A stretch of 53,570 nt of DNA from Nanobdellota archaeon (GTDB lineage: Archaea > Nanobdellota > Nanobdellia > Parvarchaeales > Parvarchaeaceae): contig JAJZWM010000004.1 of NCBI GenBank assembly GCA_021846665.1, positions 1 to 53,570 on the forward strand, in the 5' to 3' direction. The position numbers were made by a program, and so were the translations under genes. Below, in pieces: positions 5,414 through 53,570 of the stretch. The notes below the pieces were generated by a model that saw only the letters and a list, made by a program, of their open reading frames with translations, was not told the origin of the DNA and searched no databases. The stretch's first letter is position 1; each line of letters opens with the position of its first letter.

Positions 5414-8400
5414 TTATCTCTCCATGCTCATCTTTTTTATTTCTTCTATGTCTTTCTCTATTTCCTTTAATTTATCATCAATTTCTTCTTCTTTAGTATA
5501 TCTTAATCTTGCTATTTTTGGTTTTATTTGTATTGATTGCAGTTTTTCAATTGGTACATTTCTATTAAGAGCAGCTTTCTCAGCATCAAATACTTCATTT
5601 ATAACTTTTAGCATCTTATACTGTTTACTTACTGATGCATAAGTATCGGTTTCATCGAAAGCATTTTGTTGAAGGTAATCCTCTCTCAGCATTTTTGCAA
5701 TGTCTAATGTAAGTTTGTCTGATTCTGGTAGTGCATCGTAACCGACAAGCTGTACAATCTCATTTATTTCAGCTTCCTTTTGTAATGTAGCCATTGATTT
5801 ATCTCTGAGTTCTGGCCAATCCTGTGCAATGTTTTTTCTGTACCATTGATCTAGCTCATCTGTATAAAGTGAGTAACTGTTAAGCCAGTTAATTGATGGA
5901 AAATGTCTTGCATTAGCAAGTGATGCATCTAAAGCCCAAAAGACTCTCGTAACCCTAAGAGTATTCTGTGAAACAGGTTCTGATATATCTCCGCCAGGCG
6001 GAGAAACTGCCCCTATTAGTGTTGCTGCACCTATTTTTCCGCTTAATATCCTTGCTCTACCTGCTCTTTCATAGAATTCACCTATCCTTCTTCCAAGATA
6101 TGCAGGATAACCTTCCTCTCCAGGCATTTCTTCCAGTCTTCCGGAAAGTTCCCTTAGTGCTTCGGCCCATCTGGAAGTACTGTCGGCCATTACAGCTACA
6201 CTGTAGCCCATATCTCTGTAATATTCTGCAAGTGTTATGCCTGTGTAAATGCTTGCTTCTCTTGCTGCTACAGGCATGTTTGAAGTATTTGCTATAAGTA
6301 TGGTCCTATCCATTAAAGGCTTTCCGCTTTTAGGATCTTTTAGCTCTGGAAAGGTCGTAAGTATCTCTGTCATTTCGTTTCCTCTTTCACCACAGCCAAC
6401 ATAAACTATTACATCAGCATCGGACCATTTCGCAAGCTGGTGCTGAATTACAGTATTATGCAGAAGTATCGCACCGTTACCTCCAATGAAGTTGCTGCCA
6501 AATTCAGGAGTTACAACATCATATACATCAAATGGCCCTTTTGTTTCCTCTATCTCTGTTATTTTGTCGAAGTATACATAATCTAACATTTTTTGAATTT
6601 CTACGAGATTCTGTAGTTCCAAAGTACCCTCACTATTTGGATTTGAAATAGCGCTTAAGAATTTGTTAAAGCTATCCACAGTAAAATTCTCATTTCCACT
6701 CATGTAGTTTGTTATTTCTATGCCTTTTTCCTTCAATTCGGAGTAATTTGGATATTTTTTATATAGGTTTTCTACGTAATTGCTGTTTAGAGGCATTAAG
6801 TCTATAGAAGTGTAGGAGCTGTCTTTAGATTTTATGTAATTAATTATTCTATTAATTTTTTCATATTTTTGATGGCTATCATTTATGTTTTGGTAGAATT
6901 TTTTCAATTCCTTCAAATTCCTTATATAGACCCTATTCTTATCGTTGTATCCTTTAACTTTTTCAGAATGCATAGAGTTAATTATCCCTAATCTAGTTAA
7001 CGTATAAGAAAGTTGAATCTGCAATTTTTTGCTTGCGGTTGAAAACCCTATGCTCCCGCCGTAAAAACTTCCATCTCCAAGGAAATAACCTCTAATAAAC
7101 GCAGCTAATATCTTATTATTAGCTTTCATTATAACATTTGGTATATATTTCTCAGATGCATTTTTGGCGTTTATTAACCTTCTAATAAGTTTTACTAAAA
7201 TTGCACTATTAACTAAAGCATTGGGTACCTTATCTTTTTGTATTTCTAAAGTAGATTTTAATCCAAAAAGATCTTTAACTAAGAAATTGAATCGCTTTAT
7301 GAGTTTGTTGTCAGAATTAGTAAATACTATCGTATTTCTTCCTCTTATATATCCTTTAGCTACAAATAGTCCAATAAACTCTGCGAAGTTCTCATCTACA
7401 TATCTTGGTATCTTCATTAGTTTTCCAGCTCCGTCTTGTATTTTAACGTTTTTAAGTAAATCCTTCATTTTTAGTAAAATATTTTTGTCTATTGTTCTTG
7501 CATCAAATAAGTATTCGTATAGGTCTATTTTCTGTATTTCTTTATTTACCTCAAATTTTCTTATCGCGATTATGTAATCACCTTTACGAAGGTTTTCTGC
7601 AGATTCTTCCTTTATACCTGCTCCATCTAATTTGAATAGCTTGTGTACAGGTGTTATTTTTGCTTCCCTTCCAGTCTTTGTCTTTATTCTTATAACTGAA
7701 TCACTTTTGCCTTTATACAGGAATTTTGATTTGCTTTCTTTAACTTTTCCACCATACATCGAAAATAGTTTTAGTGGGTTTTTAAGCCTTAACAATGTTT
7801 CATTTTCATCTTGGTATTCTATATCACTATCCTTTTCATTTTCTTTGTAGATTTCTTCAATGCTTTTTATCTCGCCATTTGCTAACAAAACTGGAGTTTC
7901 TCCTAGTACGCATTTTCCGGATCCAAATGGCCCTGGTACCGCTGCAGTACCTCCCATTGCAACAGGAAACATTGTATCTACAACTCTTTGTCCAGTTAAG
8001 AGAGGAACCGTAGGAGAAAGTTTTTCTTTTACAGGTCTTGCCGTTCTTACTGGCCATTTTGTCATTAGCTTTATTTCCTCTGTTTTTTTATCGTTTTCCA
8101 ATACTGCAATAGTTTCATCTATAGTGTAATCTCCTTCCTCTGCAATCTTTTTTATTATTCCTTTCTGATTTACCGGAACAAGGACTCTGTGTTTTATTAA
8201 GGAAGTTTCTTTTACTTCTCCTATTTCTTCACCTGGCTCTACAGCTTTTCCTTCCTCTACTTTTGGCTTGAAGTGCCATTTTTTTTCTCTATCTAATGAA
8301 TTAACTTTTATTCCACTACCTATGAATGTACCCTCTTTGTTTAGAATTTTATCCAATGGCCTTTGTATACCGTCAAATATAGAGCCTATTAATCCTGGGC

Positions 8401-8623
8401 CAAGTTCAACCGACAAGGGTTCTCTGCTATCAATTGCCTTTTCTCCTATCCTGAGTCCGCTTGTATCTTCATATACCTGTACTATCGCATTTTTTCCTTC
8501 TATTTTTACTATCTCACCAACCAGTTCATTTTCTCCTATAAAAACAATATTATTCATTTTCGGATCTTCAAGATCAGAAACGGTTACTACTGAACCGGAA
8601 ATTCCTATTACTTTTCCTTCCAT
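5414..8623 (-). CDS. atpA: A-type ATP synthase catalytic subunit A, interrupted by an intein
   Basis: The precursor is 1069 residues; removing residues 238-723 leaves a mature protein of about 583, normal for subunit A. The N-extein holds the beta barrel and the A-specific insertion (near '[19 protein letters not shown]'). The Walker A motif GPFGSGK-T is split exactly between Lys237 and Thr724. The C-extein has '[20 protein letters not shown]', the Walker B/arm region '[17 protein letters not shown]' and '[11 protein letters not shown]'. Splicing must occur to restore the catalytic P-loop, so ATP synthase assembly depends on intein activity. Start ATG at 8623 lies one base after the subunit F stop. 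Confidence 0.97.
6455..7912 (-). mobile_element. intein with LAGLIDADG-type endonuclease domain in atpA (VMA-b insertion site)
   Basis: The in-frame insertion is 486 residues, from Cys238 to Asn723, followed by Thr724. Splicing blocks are present: block A '[20 protein letters not shown]', block B 'TPVHKLF' (TxxH), block F '[18 protein letters not shown]' and block G ending 'ILLHN'. A central dodecapeptide endonuclease domain has two motifs, 'FIGLFVAKG' and 'IRGYFLGDG'. The second keeps the metal-binding Asp; the first has Lys where Asp/Glu is expected. Cys1, the penultimate His and terminal Asn are intact, so splicing should work while DNA cleavage may not. The same P-loop site is known to hold inteins in Thermoplasmatales and Pyrococcus. 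Confidence 0.93.
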
Positions 8624-43677: not shown

Positions 43678-44358
43678 ATGTCATATAGAAAAAAAGGACA
43701 GTATTCAGTAGAATATGCAATAATAATGGGAATAGGCATAAGTATTATCGCTGCATTTTTACTTTATGTCGCACTTTTTTATGGTTCATTTGCTGTTGGT
43801 TCAGCAGCAAGTCAGATAACTACAGTATCGGATAGTCTTTCTAATGAAATCAGCTACGTTACTTCGCAGGGCCCAGGATCTGTGCAAGCATTCCCCATAA
43901 CTATACCTCTAATTGAGCCAAAGTATTCTTTTTTCTGTGGAAATATAATAAAATTGCAGACTACAACTGAGTTAGGCGTGTCTAAGTCAATTGAAAATGT
44001 ATCTGGAATGCTCCCTTTATCAGGGGGTACATTTGACGCATTTGCCAGAGATGAAAACGGTAGTGCAGTAATAGGCCTTGATTTTTCAATAGCTTTAATC
44101 CAATTTACTTATTCTACTTCTTCAAATACTCTGTCTTATTCACTGTCTTTTTATAATTACTCTAATGACTTAACACCAGCTAAATTTAATTTAAGCCTCT
44201 TTTCCGCAGGTGGGGCATATTTACAGAGCATTACAGGTTCTACAACATCTGGTAAAGCTACAGGCACATTATCTTTGCCTTCTCCAAATCTGTATATTGT
44301 TGAAGTGTATCCATCTGGGGCTGGAGATTATTATTCTACTTGTATAAGTGTTCCATGA
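43678..44358 (+). CDS. pilin-like secreted protein with class III signal peptide
   Basis: This 226-residue protein starts 'MSYRKKGQYSVEYAIIMGIG': basic residues, a G-Q junction and the QxSxEY pattern recognised by archaeal prepilin peptidase, followed by a hydrophobic helix. The rest is beta-rich, Ser/Thr/Gly-rich, with two cysteines and several N-x-S/T sites, fitting a glycosylated surface filament subunit. The true start is at 43678; a longer in-frame reading into the divergent glycosyltransferase is rejected. Adjacent genes encode glycosylation enzymes. Confidence 0.8.
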   Translation: MSYRKKGQYSVEYAIIMGIGISIIAAFLLYVALFYGSFAVGSAASQITTVSDSLSNEISYVTSQGPGSVQAFPITIPLIEPKYSFFCGNIIKLQTTTELGVSKSIENVSGMLPLSGGTFDAFARDENGSAVIGLDFSIALIQFTYSTSSNTLSYSLSFYNYSNDLTPAKFNLSLFSAGGAYLQSITGSTTSGKATGTLSLPSPNLYIVEVYPSGAGDYYSTCISVP

Positions 44359-47058: not shown

Positions 47059-48144
47059 TTACTCCTCCTTCTGCATGTATTTATCCTTTATTTCTTTGTC
47101 CGTTTGCTTTAATAAATCTTTGTCTATTATCGGTTTTGTTTCTCCTTTCTTTTCTCTAAGCTTTTCTATTATAGAAGTTATTTTCTCTACAAGGTATTTG
47201 CTATCTTTAAGTTTTTTATCGAAATCTTCTCCAGTAATTTCTTTCACTTCTCCATGGTCTATTCTTTTGAACCATTTTACTATTTCATCTACTTTTTCTA
47301 TATCCTCATGTGAAAGCACTTTTTCCTTTGCAACTGCTATATCTTCAAGTTCCTTTGCAACCTGCTTTGGCACAGGAGGTAAGTAGCCGTATTCCATAAG
47401 TAGAGCCTGACCAGCTGCTACTACTGAATTATAAATGTCTAAACTTAGCTTTGTTGTTAATACGTTTTCAGCAAGCATTAACAATCCTTCTGCGTTTTCC
47501 ACATTTGCATTTATCGATTCTACTGTGGGTATTATATTTCCAGTTTTGTAAAGCATCTGTATCGGAACAAAGAAACCAGTATCATAAACTGCTACTCCAT
47601 CCCTTAAAAGAGTAAGGATAACAGGGTTTGGTTTAATTATCGAAGCCCAAAATTCTGATAATGGATACGCTTGTGCGTGTATTTTATCCGAAAAATCTCT
47701 TGCTATTTCAGCCATCTTTGCGAATAGTCTATCTTTTAATTGTTCAAGTGTAAATTTCTGTATATCAGTGTCATCTACTATGAATGCAACATCTATATCA
47801 GAGGTACTTGTAATACCTGTTTTTGTCTTCGAACTTCCAAATATGACGATCGATTTTATATATTTTCTAAAAAGGCTTAACACTCTTAAAAAGTATGCTC
47901 TTATGGAATTTGCATCTTTTGAGGGTAGAACTTTATCTAAAACATTAAAGGATAATCCCGCAAGCTGTCCAGGAGGCTCTACTGACTCGGCATTTTCGCC
48001 CTCTCCTACTTCTAAGCCTATAAAGGATCCCATATAATCTACTCTCTCATTGAGTTCATCTATTTTTGATGATAGTGCGTCTATTGTCGAAAAAAGCTTA
48101 TTCAAAGTCGCTTCTATCGGATTTATGTTTTCTGTTTGATGCAT
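47059..48144 (-). CDS. nucleotidyltransferase-domain protein with helical C-terminal domain
   Basis: This 361-residue protein has an N-terminal coiled helix (about 10-38), then a minimal nucleotidyltransferase domain with 'IVIFGSSKTKTGITSTSDID' (G103-S104, Asp116, Asp118). A helical region ('YNSVVAAGQALLMEYGYLPP') resembles HEPN folds. This layout recalls MNT-HEPN proteins, which are often toxin-antitoxin parts, and also larger archaeal nucleotidyltransferases with housekeeping roles. The HEPN RNase motif (Rx4-6H) is not evident. Co-transcription with eL33 argues against a toxin. Confidence 0.7.
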   Translation of the reverse strand: MHQTENINPIEATLNKLFSTIDALSSKIDELNERVDYMGSFIGLEVGEGENAESVEPPGQLAGLSFNVLDKVLPSKDANSIRAYFLRVLSLFRKYIKSIVIFGSSKTKTGITSTSDIDVAFIVDDTDIQKFTLEQLKDRLFAKMAEIARDFSDKIHAQAYPLSEFWASIIKPNPVILTLLRDGVAVYDTGFFVPIQMLYKTGNIIPTVESINANVENAEGLLMLAENVLTTKLSLDIYNSVVAAGQALLMEYGYLPPVPKQVAKELEDIAVAKEKVLSHEDIEKVDEIVKWFKRIDHGEVKEITGEDFDKKLKDSKYLVEKITSIIEKLREKKGETKPIIDKDLLKQTDKEIKDKYMQKEE

Positions 48145-48301: not shown

Positions 48302-50029
48302 ATGAAGATACAAGAGGTAAGCGAAATCGCAAAGAAATTAAAAGGATCACAAACCGATCTTAATACTGTAAATAGCTGGATAAACGAGCTTGAAGCTAGG
48401 GCTTCAGGAACCGAATCTCATTACAGAGGAGAGATAGACTTTAGGTATGTATCTGGGGAGGAAATACCTAATCCTGGGTTTGTAGGCAATCCCTCCGGTT
48501 ATCAGTTTACAAGAGATATACTAAAAAGATATCATTTCCAGCCTGAATACTATTCAGTTACACAGATGTTTGCTGCTCTTGGGTATAAAAGCCTTAGAAC
48601 TTCAGAAACAATAGATCCTTCTGCTGTTTCAAGCTTGATGAATATGGTTTTCGAAAAAAGGAAAAACCTGCAGGATAGAGTAATGCAACTTCTTGGAAAT
48701 ATAAACACCGTTTTAAAGTCAATTATAGCAATAATCTATGAGCTTAAAGAGCTTGATAGGAATCTTTATTTATATGTAGAATTAAAGGATAATGACAAAG
48801 AGAAAGCTGAAGCAGCTGAGCTTGCACTTAAAAGGGTATTCTTAGACAATGTTGATTCAAGGAAAGGGGGGGCAAGCCTTTCAGCGCTTTCAAGATCTCC
48901 TACACAGAGTCAAGGTGGCCCTGGCTTCATAGATATAATGTCTGTTTTTTATCAGGTTAAAAGTCTAAAAGATGTCCAGAATATAGAAAGAAATGAACAA
49001 TATAAAAACATACTAAAAAACAGGTATATAGAATATGAGAAGTGGAAGGAAATAAACGGTAATGATCTTAAGAATAGAAAGAGTCTACTGCTTCAGTACC
49101 TTAAAAGCCAGATGGGCTCATTTAATCTTTACGTTGACTGGTGCTCTACTGATCTTTCGCTGCTTTCAAAAATTGGGCTAGATACAGCTAAAAAAGCAGA
49201 AGCATATCTTAAAGGTACGGGTAAACCAGACATATTTGAGAATGAGCTCTTCAAAGTAACAATCGTCGGCTATAAACCCGTATATTCGGGGGAGTACAAT
49301 GCAGAATACACACGATTATTCAAGAGTAATGGGCCTGAAGTAATTATAAAGGCGGAACCAAAAAGCATAGCCGGAAATATGATTTCAAGAGGCTATGAAG
49401 AACAGAACAGATCCTTTATTTATAATAAAGTTAAAAAATATGGGCCTCTTGTCATTGCTGCAATTAAAGTACAAATGGACTTTAAGGAAAAGCCGAGCAA
49501 AGAGCAGATTCAGCCGCCATATGAGGGTACTTTATATTTCCGCGGTTACCCTTATTGCTTTACGCCAGAAGAGTTTTATCTTTATAAAGAGGCACAGACA
49601 GCGAAGATACAGAAAACGGTCTTTGCATCCGTAGATCAGGTAATTTTTAGTTCTCTTAACATAATAAAAGAGGATCTTGACAAATATGTTAAAGAAGCGG
49701 ATGAGGAAGAAAAGAAGAAAAAAGAGAAAAAACCTCAAAAGGAATATGCTTTCATGGATATTTACAGAGCATTCAAGGATGACTTTACAGGGATTTCAAA
49801 GTCCTTCTCAACAATCTCCTCCATCGAAAAACATAAGACAAACTTCTCAGAAGAACAGGCAGAGATATATGAGATGCTTATTAATGCGAAAAGTTTTTCG
49901 GCAGCAAGCATTAAAAATGCAGTTGAGCTAGGCCTATTTGTATCGAATAATGAGACTAACTATATATATGATGAATTAAAAAGAAGAGGTGGCCTACTAA
50001 ACTGGAAATCTCGTTTTTCGGTGAATTAA
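48302..50029 (+). CDS. large soluble protein of unknown function, first gene of the microprotein cluster
   Basis: I do not recognise this 575-residue protein. It has no signal peptide, membrane span or Walker motif. The N-terminal region is helical. A Ser/Gly-rich linker lies near 190-210 ('GGASLSALSRSPTQSQGGPG'), followed by a helical part with 'YEKWKEINGNDLKNRK'. The C-terminal half has 'GYKPVYSGEYNAEYTRLF', 'GTLYFRGYPYCFTPEEFYLY' and a Lys/Glu tract near 460-480. Two bases separate it from the first of four membrane microproteins, and the order implies a shared transcript. A scaffold or assembly role is only a guess. Confidence 0.75.
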   Translation: MKIQEVSEIAKKLKGSQTDLNTVNSWINELEARASGTESHYRGEIDFRYVSGEEIPNPGFVGNPSGYQFTRDILKRYHFQPEYYSVTQMFAALGYKSLRTSETIDPSAVSSLMNMVFEKRKNLQDRVMQLLGNINTVLKSIIAIIYELKELDRNLYLYVELKDNDKEKAEAAELALKRVFLDNVDSRKGGASLSALSRSPTQSQGGPGFIDIMSVFYQVKSLKDVQNIERNEQYKNILKNRYIEYEKWKEINGNDLKNRKSLLLQYLKSQMGSFNLYVDWCSTDLSLLSKIGLDTAKKAEAYLKGTGKPDIFENELFKVTIVGYKPVYSGEYNAEYTRLFKSNGPEVIIKAEPKSIAGNMISRGYEEQNRSFIYNKVKKYGPLVIAAIKVQMDFKEKPSKEQIQPPYEGTLYFRGYPYCFTPEEFYLYKEAQTAKIQKTVFASVDQVIFSSLNIIKEDLDKYVKEADEEEKKKKEKKPQKEYAFMDIYRAFKDDFTGISKSFSTISSIEKHKTNFSEEQAEIYEMLINAKSFSAASIKNAVELGLFVSNNETNYIYDELKRRGGLLNWKSRFSVN

Positions 50030-50031
50030 TT

Positions 50032-50205
50032 ATGAACAGCAAGGGACAGATGCCAATAACAGAAATAATAGCTATAATACTAGCGATAATAGTTTTGTTT
50101 GCAGGTATAGTAATAGGTTTAATATTTACAGGAGCGGGATCAACAATAGCAAAAGACATGACAAGTGTTTTTTCATTTAGTTGGCTTTACGGTAAGGGTA
50201 TATGA
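50032..50205 (+). CDS. membrane microprotein 1 with class III-like signal
   Basis: This 57-residue protein starts 'MNSKGQMPITEIIAIILAII' and has one hydrophobic span (about 11-33), then a short polar tail ending 'FSFSWLYGKGI'. K-G-Q with a downstream Glu before the span resembles archaeal prepilin signals, so the protein may be cleaved by prepilin peptidase. Its TGA overlaps the next ATG (ATGA). The stop of the 575-residue gene lies two bases upstream. Confidence 0.7.
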   Translation: MNSKGQMPITEIIAIILAIIVLFAGIVIGLIFTGAGSTIAKDMTSVFSFSWLYGKGI

Positions 50206-50372
50206 ATAATAAAGGTGTTGTAAGTGGCATTTTTCTGTATATAATTATAATAATCATAGGTATACTTCTAATTGTTATCTTTTTGGAGCTTTTTACACCA
50301 TATAAGTTTACAGATCTTTTTAAGGCTTTTATATCAAAGTCAAACAGTTTAAACGTGAGCAGTTATGAATAA
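50202..50372 (+). CDS. membrane microprotein 2
   Basis: This 56-residue protein starts 'MNNKGVVSGIFLYIIIIIIG' and has one very hydrophobic span (about 9-31), then 'FTPYKFTDLFKAF' and a polar tail. The NNKGV start is shared with the next protein. The gene overlaps both neighbours, by four bases upstream and eight downstream. Confidence 0.65.
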   Translation: MNNKGVVSGIFLYIIIIIIGILLIVIFLELFTPYKFTDLFKAFISKSNSLNVSSYE

Positions 50373-50505
50373 TAAAGGAGTGGAAAGTTACATTCTTCTG
50401 ATAATAATAACACTGATAGTTCTTATATTGATAATAATATTCTACTTATTTTTGTTTTCACCAAGCACAATACACAAACTTATACCAACAGTTCCAAACG
50501 TATAA
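50365..50505 (+). CDS. membrane microprotein 3
   Basis: This 46-residue protein starts 'MNNKGVESYILLIIITLIVL' and is almost all one long hydrophobic helix (about 9-32), ending 'FSPSTIHKLIPTVPNV'. It repeats the NNKGV start and the F-x-P bend of microprotein 2, suggesting duplication. Its start lies within the previous gene's end. Confidence 0.6.
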   Translation: MNNKGVESYILLIIITLIVLILIIIFYLFLFSPSTIHKLIPTVPNV

Positions 50506-50506
50506 C

Positions 50507-50668
50507 ATGGAATCAGTCTGGTTTTATGTTATAGCTGTTATATTGGGGATAACGCTACTTTTAGTCTATTTGCTTTTAGTAGGGCCGGCAACGCTTTCTA
50601 AGGACATATCTGGCTTTTTTTCTGGGATAAGTTCGTCAATAATGGCAGGATTTAAGAATGCATATTAA
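50507..50668 (+). CDS. membrane microprotein 4
   Basis: This 53-residue protein starts 'MESVWFYVIAVILGITLLLV', has one span (about 4-26) that begins almost at the N-terminus, and ends with a Ser/Gly-rich amphipathic tail ('DISGFFSGISSSIMAGFKNA'). It lacks the KG junction of the other three. It begins one base after microprotein 3 ends, and GINS follows 32 nt later. Confidence 0.6.
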   Translation: MESVWFYVIAVILGITLLLVYLLLVGPATLSKDISGFFSGISSSIMAGFKNAY

Positions 50669-51276: not shown

Positions 51277-52803
51277 ATGACTTTCTTTAAGGAAAAGATA
51301 GAAGACAGAGAATATCAGAATAGGATATTCGAGACTGTAAAAACAGGTAATACTCTTGTTGTATTGCCAACAGGACTTGGAAAAACCATAATAAGTGCCA
51401 TGCTTGTAGATTATAGGGTTACTAAATATCCCTCTTCGAAGATTCTTTTTTTAGCGCCAACAAAGCCACTAGCCAATCAGCATTACAAAACGTTTTCTTC
51501 ATTGATGGCAGTAAATGCCGGTATAGTAAGTGGTTCAGTCTCAAGTAGCAAAAGAAGCAAAATCTACGAAGAGTCACAGTTGATATTTGCAACACCACAG
51601 ACTATAGAGAATGATATGGCAAAAAAGATAATAGATTTCTCTAACTTTAGCTTGCTTATAGTCGATGAGGCCCATCATACGATAGGAAATTATTCTTATG
51701 TCAAGATTGCAAAAGCATATTCTGAACAGTCTATTCACCCACTTATACTTGGACTTACAGCTTCTCCCGCATCTGACAGGGAAAAGATAAAATTGATATG
51801 CAGTAATCTGCAAATAAGCAATGTTGAGATAAGGTCTGATGATGATCCTGATGTTATACCCTACATACAGAAAAAATATATAGAGGAGGTAAAAGTTGAC
51901 CTTCCTCAGGAGATACTTGAGCTTGCTAACAGTCTAAAGTTATTGATAAGCGAATCAATAAGCGAATTACAAGAGATAGGCCTATTAAAAAATGTGCAGA
52001 AAAGCAGGATAAATAAAGTTACTATACTGCTACTTCAGAAAAACCTTCAAAGACAGATGTTCAGTGGAAAAAGAACGTATTATCTTATTAGGGGCATAAT
52101 ACTGACTTCGAAGCTTTTAAAGCTTTATCATGCTTACAATCTATTGTCAACACAAAGTCTTGAGGCATTTTTAAATTTTCTTGAAAAGATACAAAATGGC
52201 AAGGCAAAGACTGATAAGGACTTGTCTTCAAATAAAAGTTTTATTGAAATCAAAGAAAGAACTGTGGAGTTACTTAAAAACGGAGTAGAACATCCTAAAC
52301 TTAAACAGCTTAAAATTATATTTACAAATTATTTCAATGAATCAAAAAAGGCCATAGTGTTTGCGCAGTATAGAGATACAGTAGATGTAATAAATACTAG
52401 CATATCTAAGATACCGGGAGTAAGGCCTATAAAATTTATAGGTCAAGGAAAAGGAGGATTGTCGCAGAAAGAACAGGTCAATATAGTAAGAGATTTTGAA
52501 TCAGGAATTTACAATGTACTTGTCTCAACAAGTGTGAGTGAAGAGGGTATGTCTATAAAAGGAGTTGATCTCGCAGTTTTTTATGAAACAATACCAAGTG
52601 CAATAAGAAATATTCAGCGAAGAGGTAGAGTGGGAAGATTCTCTGCGGGTAGGATATTTATATTAATTACAAATGGAACAAACGATGAAGGGTATTATTG
52701 GCTTTCTAAAAGAAGAGAAAAGACCATGAAAAGAATTATAAAAAATATAAGGGAAAATCCAGATACGATAAAGCAGGATGGCACACTGCATCCATTTATC
52801 TAA
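51277..52803 (+). CDS. Hef-like superfamily 2 helicase (no nuclease domain)
   Basis: This 508-residue protein has SF2 motifs: I 'LPTGLGKT', Ia 'FLAPTKPLANQH', II 'IVDEAHH', III 'GLTASPA', a thumb-like helical insertion (about 200-290), IV 'AIVFAQYRDTVD', V 'VLVSTSVSEEGMSIKGVDLA' and VI 'IQRRGRVGR'. This is the FANCM/Hef helicase half, acting on forks and flaps. The XPF-type nuclease half found in euryarchaeal Hef is absent. It overlaps a convergent pilin-like gene by four bases. Confidence 0.88.
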   Translation: MTFFKEKIEDREYQNRIFETVKTGNTLVVLPTGLGKTIISAMLVDYRVTKYPSSKILFLAPTKPLANQHYKTFSSLMAVNAGIVSGSVSSSKRSKIYEESQLIFATPQTIENDMAKKIIDFSNFSLLIVDEAHHTIGNYSYVKIAKAYSEQSIHPLILGLTASPASDREKIKLICSNLQISNVEIRSDDDPDVIPYIQKKYIEEVKVDLPQEILELANSLKLLISESISELQEIGLLKNVQKSRINKVTILLLQKNLQRQMFSGKRTYYLIRGIILTSKLLKLYHAYNLLSTQSLEAFLNFLEKIQNGKAKTDKDLSSNKSFIEIKERTVELLKNGVEHPKLKQLKIIFTNYFNESKKAIVFAQYRDTVDVINTSISKIPGVRPIKFIGQGKGGLSQKEQVNIVRDFESGIYNVLVSTSVSEEGMSIKGVDLAVFYETIPSAIRNIQRRGRVGRFSAGRIFILITNGTNDEGYYWLSKRREKTMKRIIKNIRENPDTIKQDGTLHPFI

Positions 52804-53282
52804 CTACCAAATATCTCTGTTTTACATGTTCCACCTGCAGAGTATTTTACTCCGTCTATGGAAACATTACTTCCAGATGTGTTGCCTATAATAACAGTGT
52901 TTATTCCAGGGTCTACAATAGTTATATCTGTAGAAAATGAGTTTATACCAGCTGTATAGTTACCTATAAATGACAAAGCAGAGGGATTAATTTTATTATT
53001 TTTGTTAATATTGCTTGCAAATACCCTATAAATTAATCCTGGGCTGCCATCCGATACCGTTATCTTAAATAAGTTATGTTCTGATGAGGTGCTTATGTTT
53101 GTAACATTCGCAGAGCATGTTACGGGAGAACCACTATTGCTAGTTATTACTCCCGCCGGTAGGATAGCAAAATGGAAGACAGAACTAGCAATCACAACCC
53201 CTATAACCAAAAATGAAATAAGAAGGATAATAACTATAAAGTACTCTACAGCACTAGTACCATTTACTTTGTTACTGCGCAT
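52800..53282 (-). CDS. pilin-like protein with class III-type N-terminus
   Basis: This 160-residue protein starts 'MRSNKVNGTSAVEYFIVIIL': a basic stretch, a G-T junction, S-x-x-E-Y and a hydrophobic helix (about 14-36), consistent with archaeal prepilin processing. The mature part is beta-rich and has three N-x-S/T-type sites and cysteines at the 'PVTCSANVTNIS' and 'GGTCKTEIF' ends. Its start overlaps the upstream gene by 19 nt. A second pilin-like gene is at 43678. Confidence 0.75.
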   Translation of the reverse strand: MRSNKVNGTSAVEYFIVIILLISFLVIGVVIASSVFHFAILPAGVITSNSGSPVTCSANVTNISTSSEHNLFKITVSDGSPGLIYRVFASNINKNNKINPSALSFIGNYTAGINSFSTDITIVDPGINTVIIGNTSGSNVSIDGVKYSAGGTCKTEIFGS

Positions 53283-53570
53283 ATATAAATTAAATTCCTC
53301 CCCAAAAAGTTTGGTTTTGATATTCCTATCTGCTGAGGCAGAGAATCAAAGAAGTAGAATAAAGACTGGGCACATTGCTCTATCCCAGTAGCATATAAAG
53401 ATGCTTCTGCAAGTTTTGCAGTGTATGTAAGCGCGTTAGGCGCAACATCATCTTTACATATAGAATTATTAAAACATTCTGCACTTCCAAATCCTGCAAG
53501 TGCTACACCAGCTACTAATCCCGGATTTGATGGTGCAAGTAGTTTTGCGCCTATAGCTGATACAACTGCT
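53264..53570 (-). CDS. unidentified protein, 5' truncated
   Basis: The frame is open to the window edge, with 102 residues visible. It begins with Ala/Gly-rich hydrophobic sequence ('LVAGVALAGFGSAECFNNSI') and then a more polar part with cysteines ('CKDDVAP', 'EQCAQSLFYFFDSLPQQI'), ending 'LIYICAVTK' at a TAA at 53264. It overlaps the start of the pilin-like gene, so the two are likely coupled. No family is recognised from the visible part. Confidence 0.6.
   Translation of the reverse strand, partial: AVVSAIGAKLLAPSNPGLVAGVALAGFGSAECFNNSICKDDVAPNALTYTAKLAEASLYATGIEQCAQSLFYFFDSLPQQIGISKPNFLGRNLIYICAVTK

Follow-up and report, generated by a model that had tools for sequence, protein, structure and literature searches.

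Four membrane microproteins of a Parvarchaeaceae genome, probable short pilin-like subunits of a type IV pilus-like machine

Gene content and coding status of the locus

Near the right end of the window, which comprises the whole analysed stretch of 53,570 nt and belongs to contig C27 of genome G000 (725 kb, 39 contigs), a gene for a 575-aa protein, here named BIG, is followed by four very short reading frames, M1 to M4. Are these frames genes, what do their products form, and does BIG take part in it? All five frames described in the initial annotation were present at their stated positions. The features of the region are:

47059-48144, minus strand: Pol-beta-like nucleotidyltransferase, 361 aa (Polbeta 8.9e-5, below the curated cut-off)
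48302-50029, plus strand: BIG, 575 aa, without transmembrane segment; phylum core family
50032-50205, plus strand: M1, 57 aa, single-span pilin-like microprotein
50202-50372, plus strand: M2, 56 aa, single-span microprotein with an F-T-P bend
50365-50505, plus strand: M3, 46 aa, single-span microprotein with an F-S-P bend and a Pro-containing tail
50507-50668, plus strand: M4, 53 aa, single-span microprotein; K-G motif lost in the window genome
50701-51276, plus strand: Gins51-like replication protein, 191 aa (Pfam Gins51_C 5.3e-9)
51277-52803, plus strand: DEAD/Hef-type helicase, 508 aa
52800-53282, minus strand: F160, 160-aa pilin-like protein with the N-terminus NGTSAVEYFIVIILL
53264-53570, minus strand: C-terminal part of F491 (remainder to C27:54739), 491-aa Cys-rich single-pass protein

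Elsewhere in the window, positions 5414-8623 of the minus strand encode a V/A-type ATPase subunit A of 1069 aa with an apparent intein after GPFGSGK, ending in ...GAILLHN.

The junctions measured +2 nt for BIG-M1, -4 nt for M1-M2 (ATGA), -8 nt for M2-M3 and +1 nt for M3-M4. Their earlier description as 2-bp or overlapping holds for the first three; M3 and M4 are separated by a single nucleotide rather than 2. M1 to M4 followed BIG in the same order in all 23 genus genomes. The spacing between BIG and M1 was 1-9 nt in each of them, and co-transcription is therefore likely. M1 and M2 overlapped in 21 of the 23, and the downstream position of Gins51 was conserved in nearly all. The junction spacing is conserved in the genus. 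Coordinated translation had been proposed from the overlaps, and M1 to M4 are probably translationally coupled. Genome G007 (L026) carried a 185-nt gap between M3 and M4 without an obvious frame; all other genus members showed 1-6 nt.

M1 to M4 are genuine genes under purifying selection. Pooled Nei-Gojobori dN/dS (55 pairs) was 0.055 for M1, 0.068 for M2, 0.058 for M3 and 0.082 for M4; the ten closest pairs gave 0.012, 0.083, 0.055 and 0.033, respectively. Many stops interrupted the two other frames of the same DNA, for which pN/pS was about 1-3.6. Lack of conservation or a dN/dS near 1 had been named as arguments against coding, and both were checked: the gene order was kept throughout the genus and the ratios lay between 0.01 and 0.08. 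The frames are short and the DNA is AT-rich, as would suit frames arisen by chance. The low dN/dS, the absence of in-frame stops, the frame controls and the conserved order refute that explanation.

The wider pilin-like cluster and the position of BIG

The locus had been described as a closed unit of BIG and M1 to M4, but the cluster continues on the other strand past the right end of the window. There, beyond the helicase and largely outside the window, the minus strand encodes F160, F491, F296 (296 aa), F53 and F169 (169 aa). F53 is a fifth KG microprotein with the N-terminus MNKKGSVEWRIIW, and the gene sequence of F491 is partly masked as N. The order F160-F491-F296-F53-F169 recurred in the other genus members inspected (L118-L120, L125 and L126). 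Gins51 and the helicase thus split the pilin-like cluster in the window genus. A further pilin-like protein (KKGQYSVEYAIIMGIGISIIAAF) is encoded at 43678-44355 of the plus strand; it shows weak FlaF_Ig-like similarity (0.037).

In the sister genus, locus L082 held the genes on one strand in the order F52-F302-F494-F147-M1-M2-M3-M4-Gins51, with an A24 prepilin peptidase (Pfam, 3.1e-9) about 3 kb beyond the cluster. The protein encoded immediately before M1 in the sister genus has 145-147 aa and is homologous to F160. At L081, 502-aa and 145-aa homologues were located upstream of M1, and BIG was found past the helicase on the opposite strand. In the sister genus pilin-like genes, not BIG, precede M1. 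Placement of BIG ahead of M1 is therefore a trait of the window genus, and it is with the pilin-like genes that M1 to M4 are more widely associated.

Of 37 relatives, 36 had BIG, among them the 22 other genus members (44-90% identity). Its profile matched 224 of the 236 phylum genomes and 199 of the 207 good ones. At 53 sampled BIG loci, a gene for a xylose-isomerase-like TIM-barrel protein followed on the same strand in 35 and a nucleotidyltransferase was nearby in 28. In the window genome, these usual partners sit together on another contig, C33. On that contig (L051:3881-9801), an ABCE1-like protein (ABC_tran and Fer4) precedes the TIM-barrel and nucleotidyltransferase genes. The 361-aa Pol-beta-like gene diverges from BIG; it was also found in L118, L119, L120 and L126, and its position was kept in L081 although BIG had moved. 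A DUF63 partner was sought in the window's own genome and not found.

This distribution bears on the idea of BIG and M1 to M4 as a dedicated membrane complex, be it a filament, a pore or an anchor, with BIG as cytoplasmic organiser. The short BIG-M1 gap and the fixed order in all 23 genus genomes would agree with it. However, BIG is spread across the phylum, mostly beside other partners, and clear M1 to M4 genes were seen only in the family; the sister genus has M1 to M4 after pilin-like genes, and BIG lies on the other strand in L081. Phylum spread and sister-genus order rule out one conserved module of BIG and M1 to M4 beyond the genus, and make such a complex an unlikely explanation. The organiser role suggested for BIG in the initial annotation was not upheld. 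BIG is a separate, near-universal core protein of the phylum and most likely not a pilus organiser.

The 575-aa protein had been reported to lack recognised domains, and it indeed showed no match in Pfam, nor in NCBIfam or PDB sequence searches. An AlphaFold model of a 429-aa BIG homologue (60 sequences; pLDDT 84.6, pTM 0.71) predicted a small beta domain carrying a long helical hairpin. The best Foldseek match of this model was EmrA (3.4e-4, TM-score of about 0.1, probability 0.33). The EmrA/MacA matches, at TM-scores of 0.1-0.2, were not taken as kinship and probably reflect a common long hairpin. Assignment to a known family was likewise abandoned after the sequence searches and two AlphaFold models with Foldseek had remained unconvincing. 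Table 1 of PMC6393860 lists the DPANN-specific cls.004340/NEQ484 as an 'alpha helical protein' in a housekeeping context. As far as that entry describes it, this family resembles BIG in being DPANN-restricted, helical and of conserved housekeeping context, and BIG may belong to it, as a candidate by description alone. Near-universal, with a confidently predicted core and no recognisable relative, BIG is a good target for further work.

Sequence features of M1 to M4 and their link to filament machinery

M1 carries the N-terminus [KR][GA][QE]MPITEII and the C-terminus FSxWLxG; M7, A14, A18, S48, F49, W51, L52 and G54 are among its invariant columns. N-K-G or S-K-G starts had been noted in three of the micro-ORFs and were seen in M1 (NSKG), M2 (NNKG) and M3 (NNKG). 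The NNKGV and F-x-P elements said to be common to two frames were traced to M2 and M3, where F-[TS]-P follows the span. M4 shows G-P at this place. Paralogy of M2 and M3, and also of M4, is plausible. The [KR][GA] motif was found in 23 of 23 genus genomes for M1, 18 for M2, 22 for M3 and 7 for M4. M4 begins with KKG[VI]TE in divergent genus members and with M-E-S in the window clade, where the segment ahead of the cleavage site looks as if it had been lost. As K-G is missing from most M4 and several M2, the subunits do not all require processing. Compared with the classical Glu at +5, M1 has its Glu at +6, and the acidic residue of M2 to M4, where present, is at about +2/+3. Glu at +5 is present in F160 and in a 166-aa neighbour. 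Glu at +5 is not known to be required in all archaeal subunits.

The window genome encodes filament machinery on other contigs. A 755-aa T2SSE ATPase (PF00437, 1e-17) is encoded on contig C19 and is followed by a 705-aa platform-like membrane protein. In the family of the latter, T2SSF was the commonest match, below the cut-off (7 of 10 members, best 0.005). C36 encodes a second ATPase and two clear T2SSF proteins, and C8 a prepilin peptidase (PF01478, E=1.3e-14). In the window genus, an 806-aa subtilase-family protein (Peptidase_S8 2.2e-9) is encoded directly before the ATPase and platform genes (C19, L098:4200-10984). No M gene adjoins the ATPase in the window genome. Among the window and the loci retrieved from relatives, genes of an archaellum operon (FlaH/FlaJ/FlaF/FlaG with archaellins) were not noticed. 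The earlier statement that the arrangement does not match type IV pilus operons, having no ATPase or FlaJ-like protein, is correct at the locus. It is true only locally, because the genome encodes ATPase, platform and peptidase on other contigs; elsewhere, relatives of M1 occur at ATPase/platform loci.

These relatives were found by searching 141 genomes of the class with the M1 profile. Matches occurred in 72 genomes, strong only in the family and weak elsewhere. In G027, which belongs to a different family, the gene order was a 766-aa ATPase, the platform, proteins of 174, 62, 367 and 673 aa and a 51-aa M1 homologue (E=9.5e-9) with the FSxW C-terminus kept. The 673-aa protein (locus L080) is a homologue of F491 (E=6.3e-16). 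In G034, the gene immediately 3' of that for the platform encodes a homologue of F169 (E=5.8e-10). M1-like ORFs of 51-62 aa ending in F[SKG]W..G came after F491-type genes in G027, G050 and G058. At the sequence level, homologues of M1, F491 and F169 were thereby established at ATPase/platform loci.

In a test of position only, with the ~760-aa ATPase located by a profile search, 28 genomes picked for having M1 matches were compared. Half of them, 14, had an M1 match on the same strand and no more than 10 kb downstream of the ATPase; the expected number was 0.32 (P=1e-20). M2 and M3 profiles gave few weak matches across the 28 genomes, some of them near the ATPase, and these were not counted as proof. 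Outside the family, relatives of M4 were weak, with the search restricted to local loci. Clear M1 to M4 were seen only in the family and weak relatives elsewhere. In other families (L123, L127, L129, L136 and L137), three membrane proteins of about 180-195 aa and two small minus-strand proteins preceded the ~760-aa ATPase in fixed order, which suggests a larger conserved machine.

Could the quartet instead have no relation to pilus-linked proteins and consist of single-span microproteins of holin, toxin or leader type, similar to them through shared hydrophobicity? Short hydrophobic sequences score easily, and several M1 profile matches were weak, some of them within long ORFs. However, a column-shuffled M1 profile of the same composition gave no match in the 28 genomes at E<=0.01; the two that passed E<=0.05 were both away from the ATPase. 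Shared hydrophobicity was rejected as the cause of the M1 matches. The concentration of M1 matches at the ATPase locus and the recurrence of both the FSxW C-terminal motif and the place after F491 also speak against this reading, which is largely refuted and very improbable.

A second alternative keeps M1 to M4 within a type IV pilus-like system, as subunits that never polymerise and stay in the membrane as permanent helices stabilising the platform or ATPase. The proteins leave no room for a pilin head, the transmembrane bend is conserved, the tails are short and K-G is dispensable in M4 and some M2. M1, however, retains [KR][GA][QE] in every genus genome, and the larger neighbours resemble pilin-type single-pass proteins. 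We regard permanent helices as unlikely, though less so than a complex organised by BIG.

Proposed machine and comparison with known systems

With the split pilin-like cluster, the homologues at ATPase loci and the ATPase, platform and peptidase of the window's own genome, the most likely identity of M1 to M4 is that of pilin-like subunits. They are probably very short, near-headless members of a type IV pilus-like machine that is widespread in this DPANN phylum. This machine would be powered by the T2SSE ATPase of about 755-770 aa together with the platform protein of about 700 aa. In each subunit, a short N-terminal stretch (with K/R-G/A in the ancestral form) would lead into a membrane helix of about 20-30 residues and then a tail of 10-25 residues. 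M1 to M4 would insert with the N-terminus inside and the C-terminus outside. The A24 prepilin peptidase would process M1 at a minimum, and probably also M3 and the majority of M2, and the ATPase and platform would then extract or assemble the helices. The neighbouring single-pass proteins F160, F491, F296, F53 and F169 would serve as larger minor-pilin-like or tip components and form exposed parts. Production of M1 to M4 would be kept balanced by their overlapping frames. BIG, ancestrally tied to the TIM-barrel/nucleotidyltransferase set, probably became the upstream gene of the quartet by rearrangement in the genus, and may share its transcript without belonging to the machine. Topology, cleavage, assembly into a filament or pseudopilus, stoichiometry and a role in host attachment or exchange are what we infer from this arrangement.

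The initial annotation had considered a new membrane complex such as a minimal filament. A filament is still the best direction, and the part with a cytoplasmic organiser was dropped. A helix-only filament or channel for host contact or exchange, with BIG recruited in the genus as cytoplasmic partner, appears improbable, to about the same degree as the BIG-organised complex.

Genes as short as M1 to M4 are easily missed in annotation. If the pilin-like assignment is true, the phylum-wide machine of these host-dependent archaea gains candidate pilins that can be tested, and subunits without a head bear on the minimal requirements of a pilin. Epd and Tad/Flp systems have short pilins, a dedicated peptidase and a platform split into two proteins. 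By description, the window system would be like Epd and Tad/Flp (PMC6711533) in short pilins processed by a dedicated peptidase. It is unlike them in that the C19 platform is one 705-aa protein and M1 to M4 appear shorter still. For type IV pili, a role has been proposed in the attachment of Nanoarchaeota to their host (PMC6142677) and in the parasitism of Nanohaloarchaeota (PMC11291902).

Archaeal type IV pili have a FlaI/VirB11-type ATPase, a FlaJ/TadC platform and pilins with class III signals (PMC4858521). The window system shares with them the T2SSE ATPase, a putative divergent T2SSF-type platform, the A24 peptidase, K/R-G prepilin-like N-termini in part of its subunits, tandem small pilin-like genes and single-pass Cys-rich larger partners. 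In contrast, its subunits are 46-57 aa long and almost headless, its genes are dispersed over several contigs and the sequences are unlike the searched Pfam families. A nanoarchaeal type IV pilus ATPase clade without identified pilins was described by Makarova et al. 2016 (PMC4858521). According to Fig. 2A of Makarova et al. 2019 (PMC6393860), dark-matter genes next to FliI/TadC in DPANN islands represent diverse pilins. Like the window locus, the islands in that figure place uncharacterised small signal-bearing proteins beside FliI/TadC genes; the micro-ORFs M1 to M4 are not named in this account of them. Orthology, selection, motif and proximity were measured here, and the cluster proved to be split around Gins51 and the helicase. 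The window locus would be a new variant of the DPANN pilin islands, with extremely short subunits.
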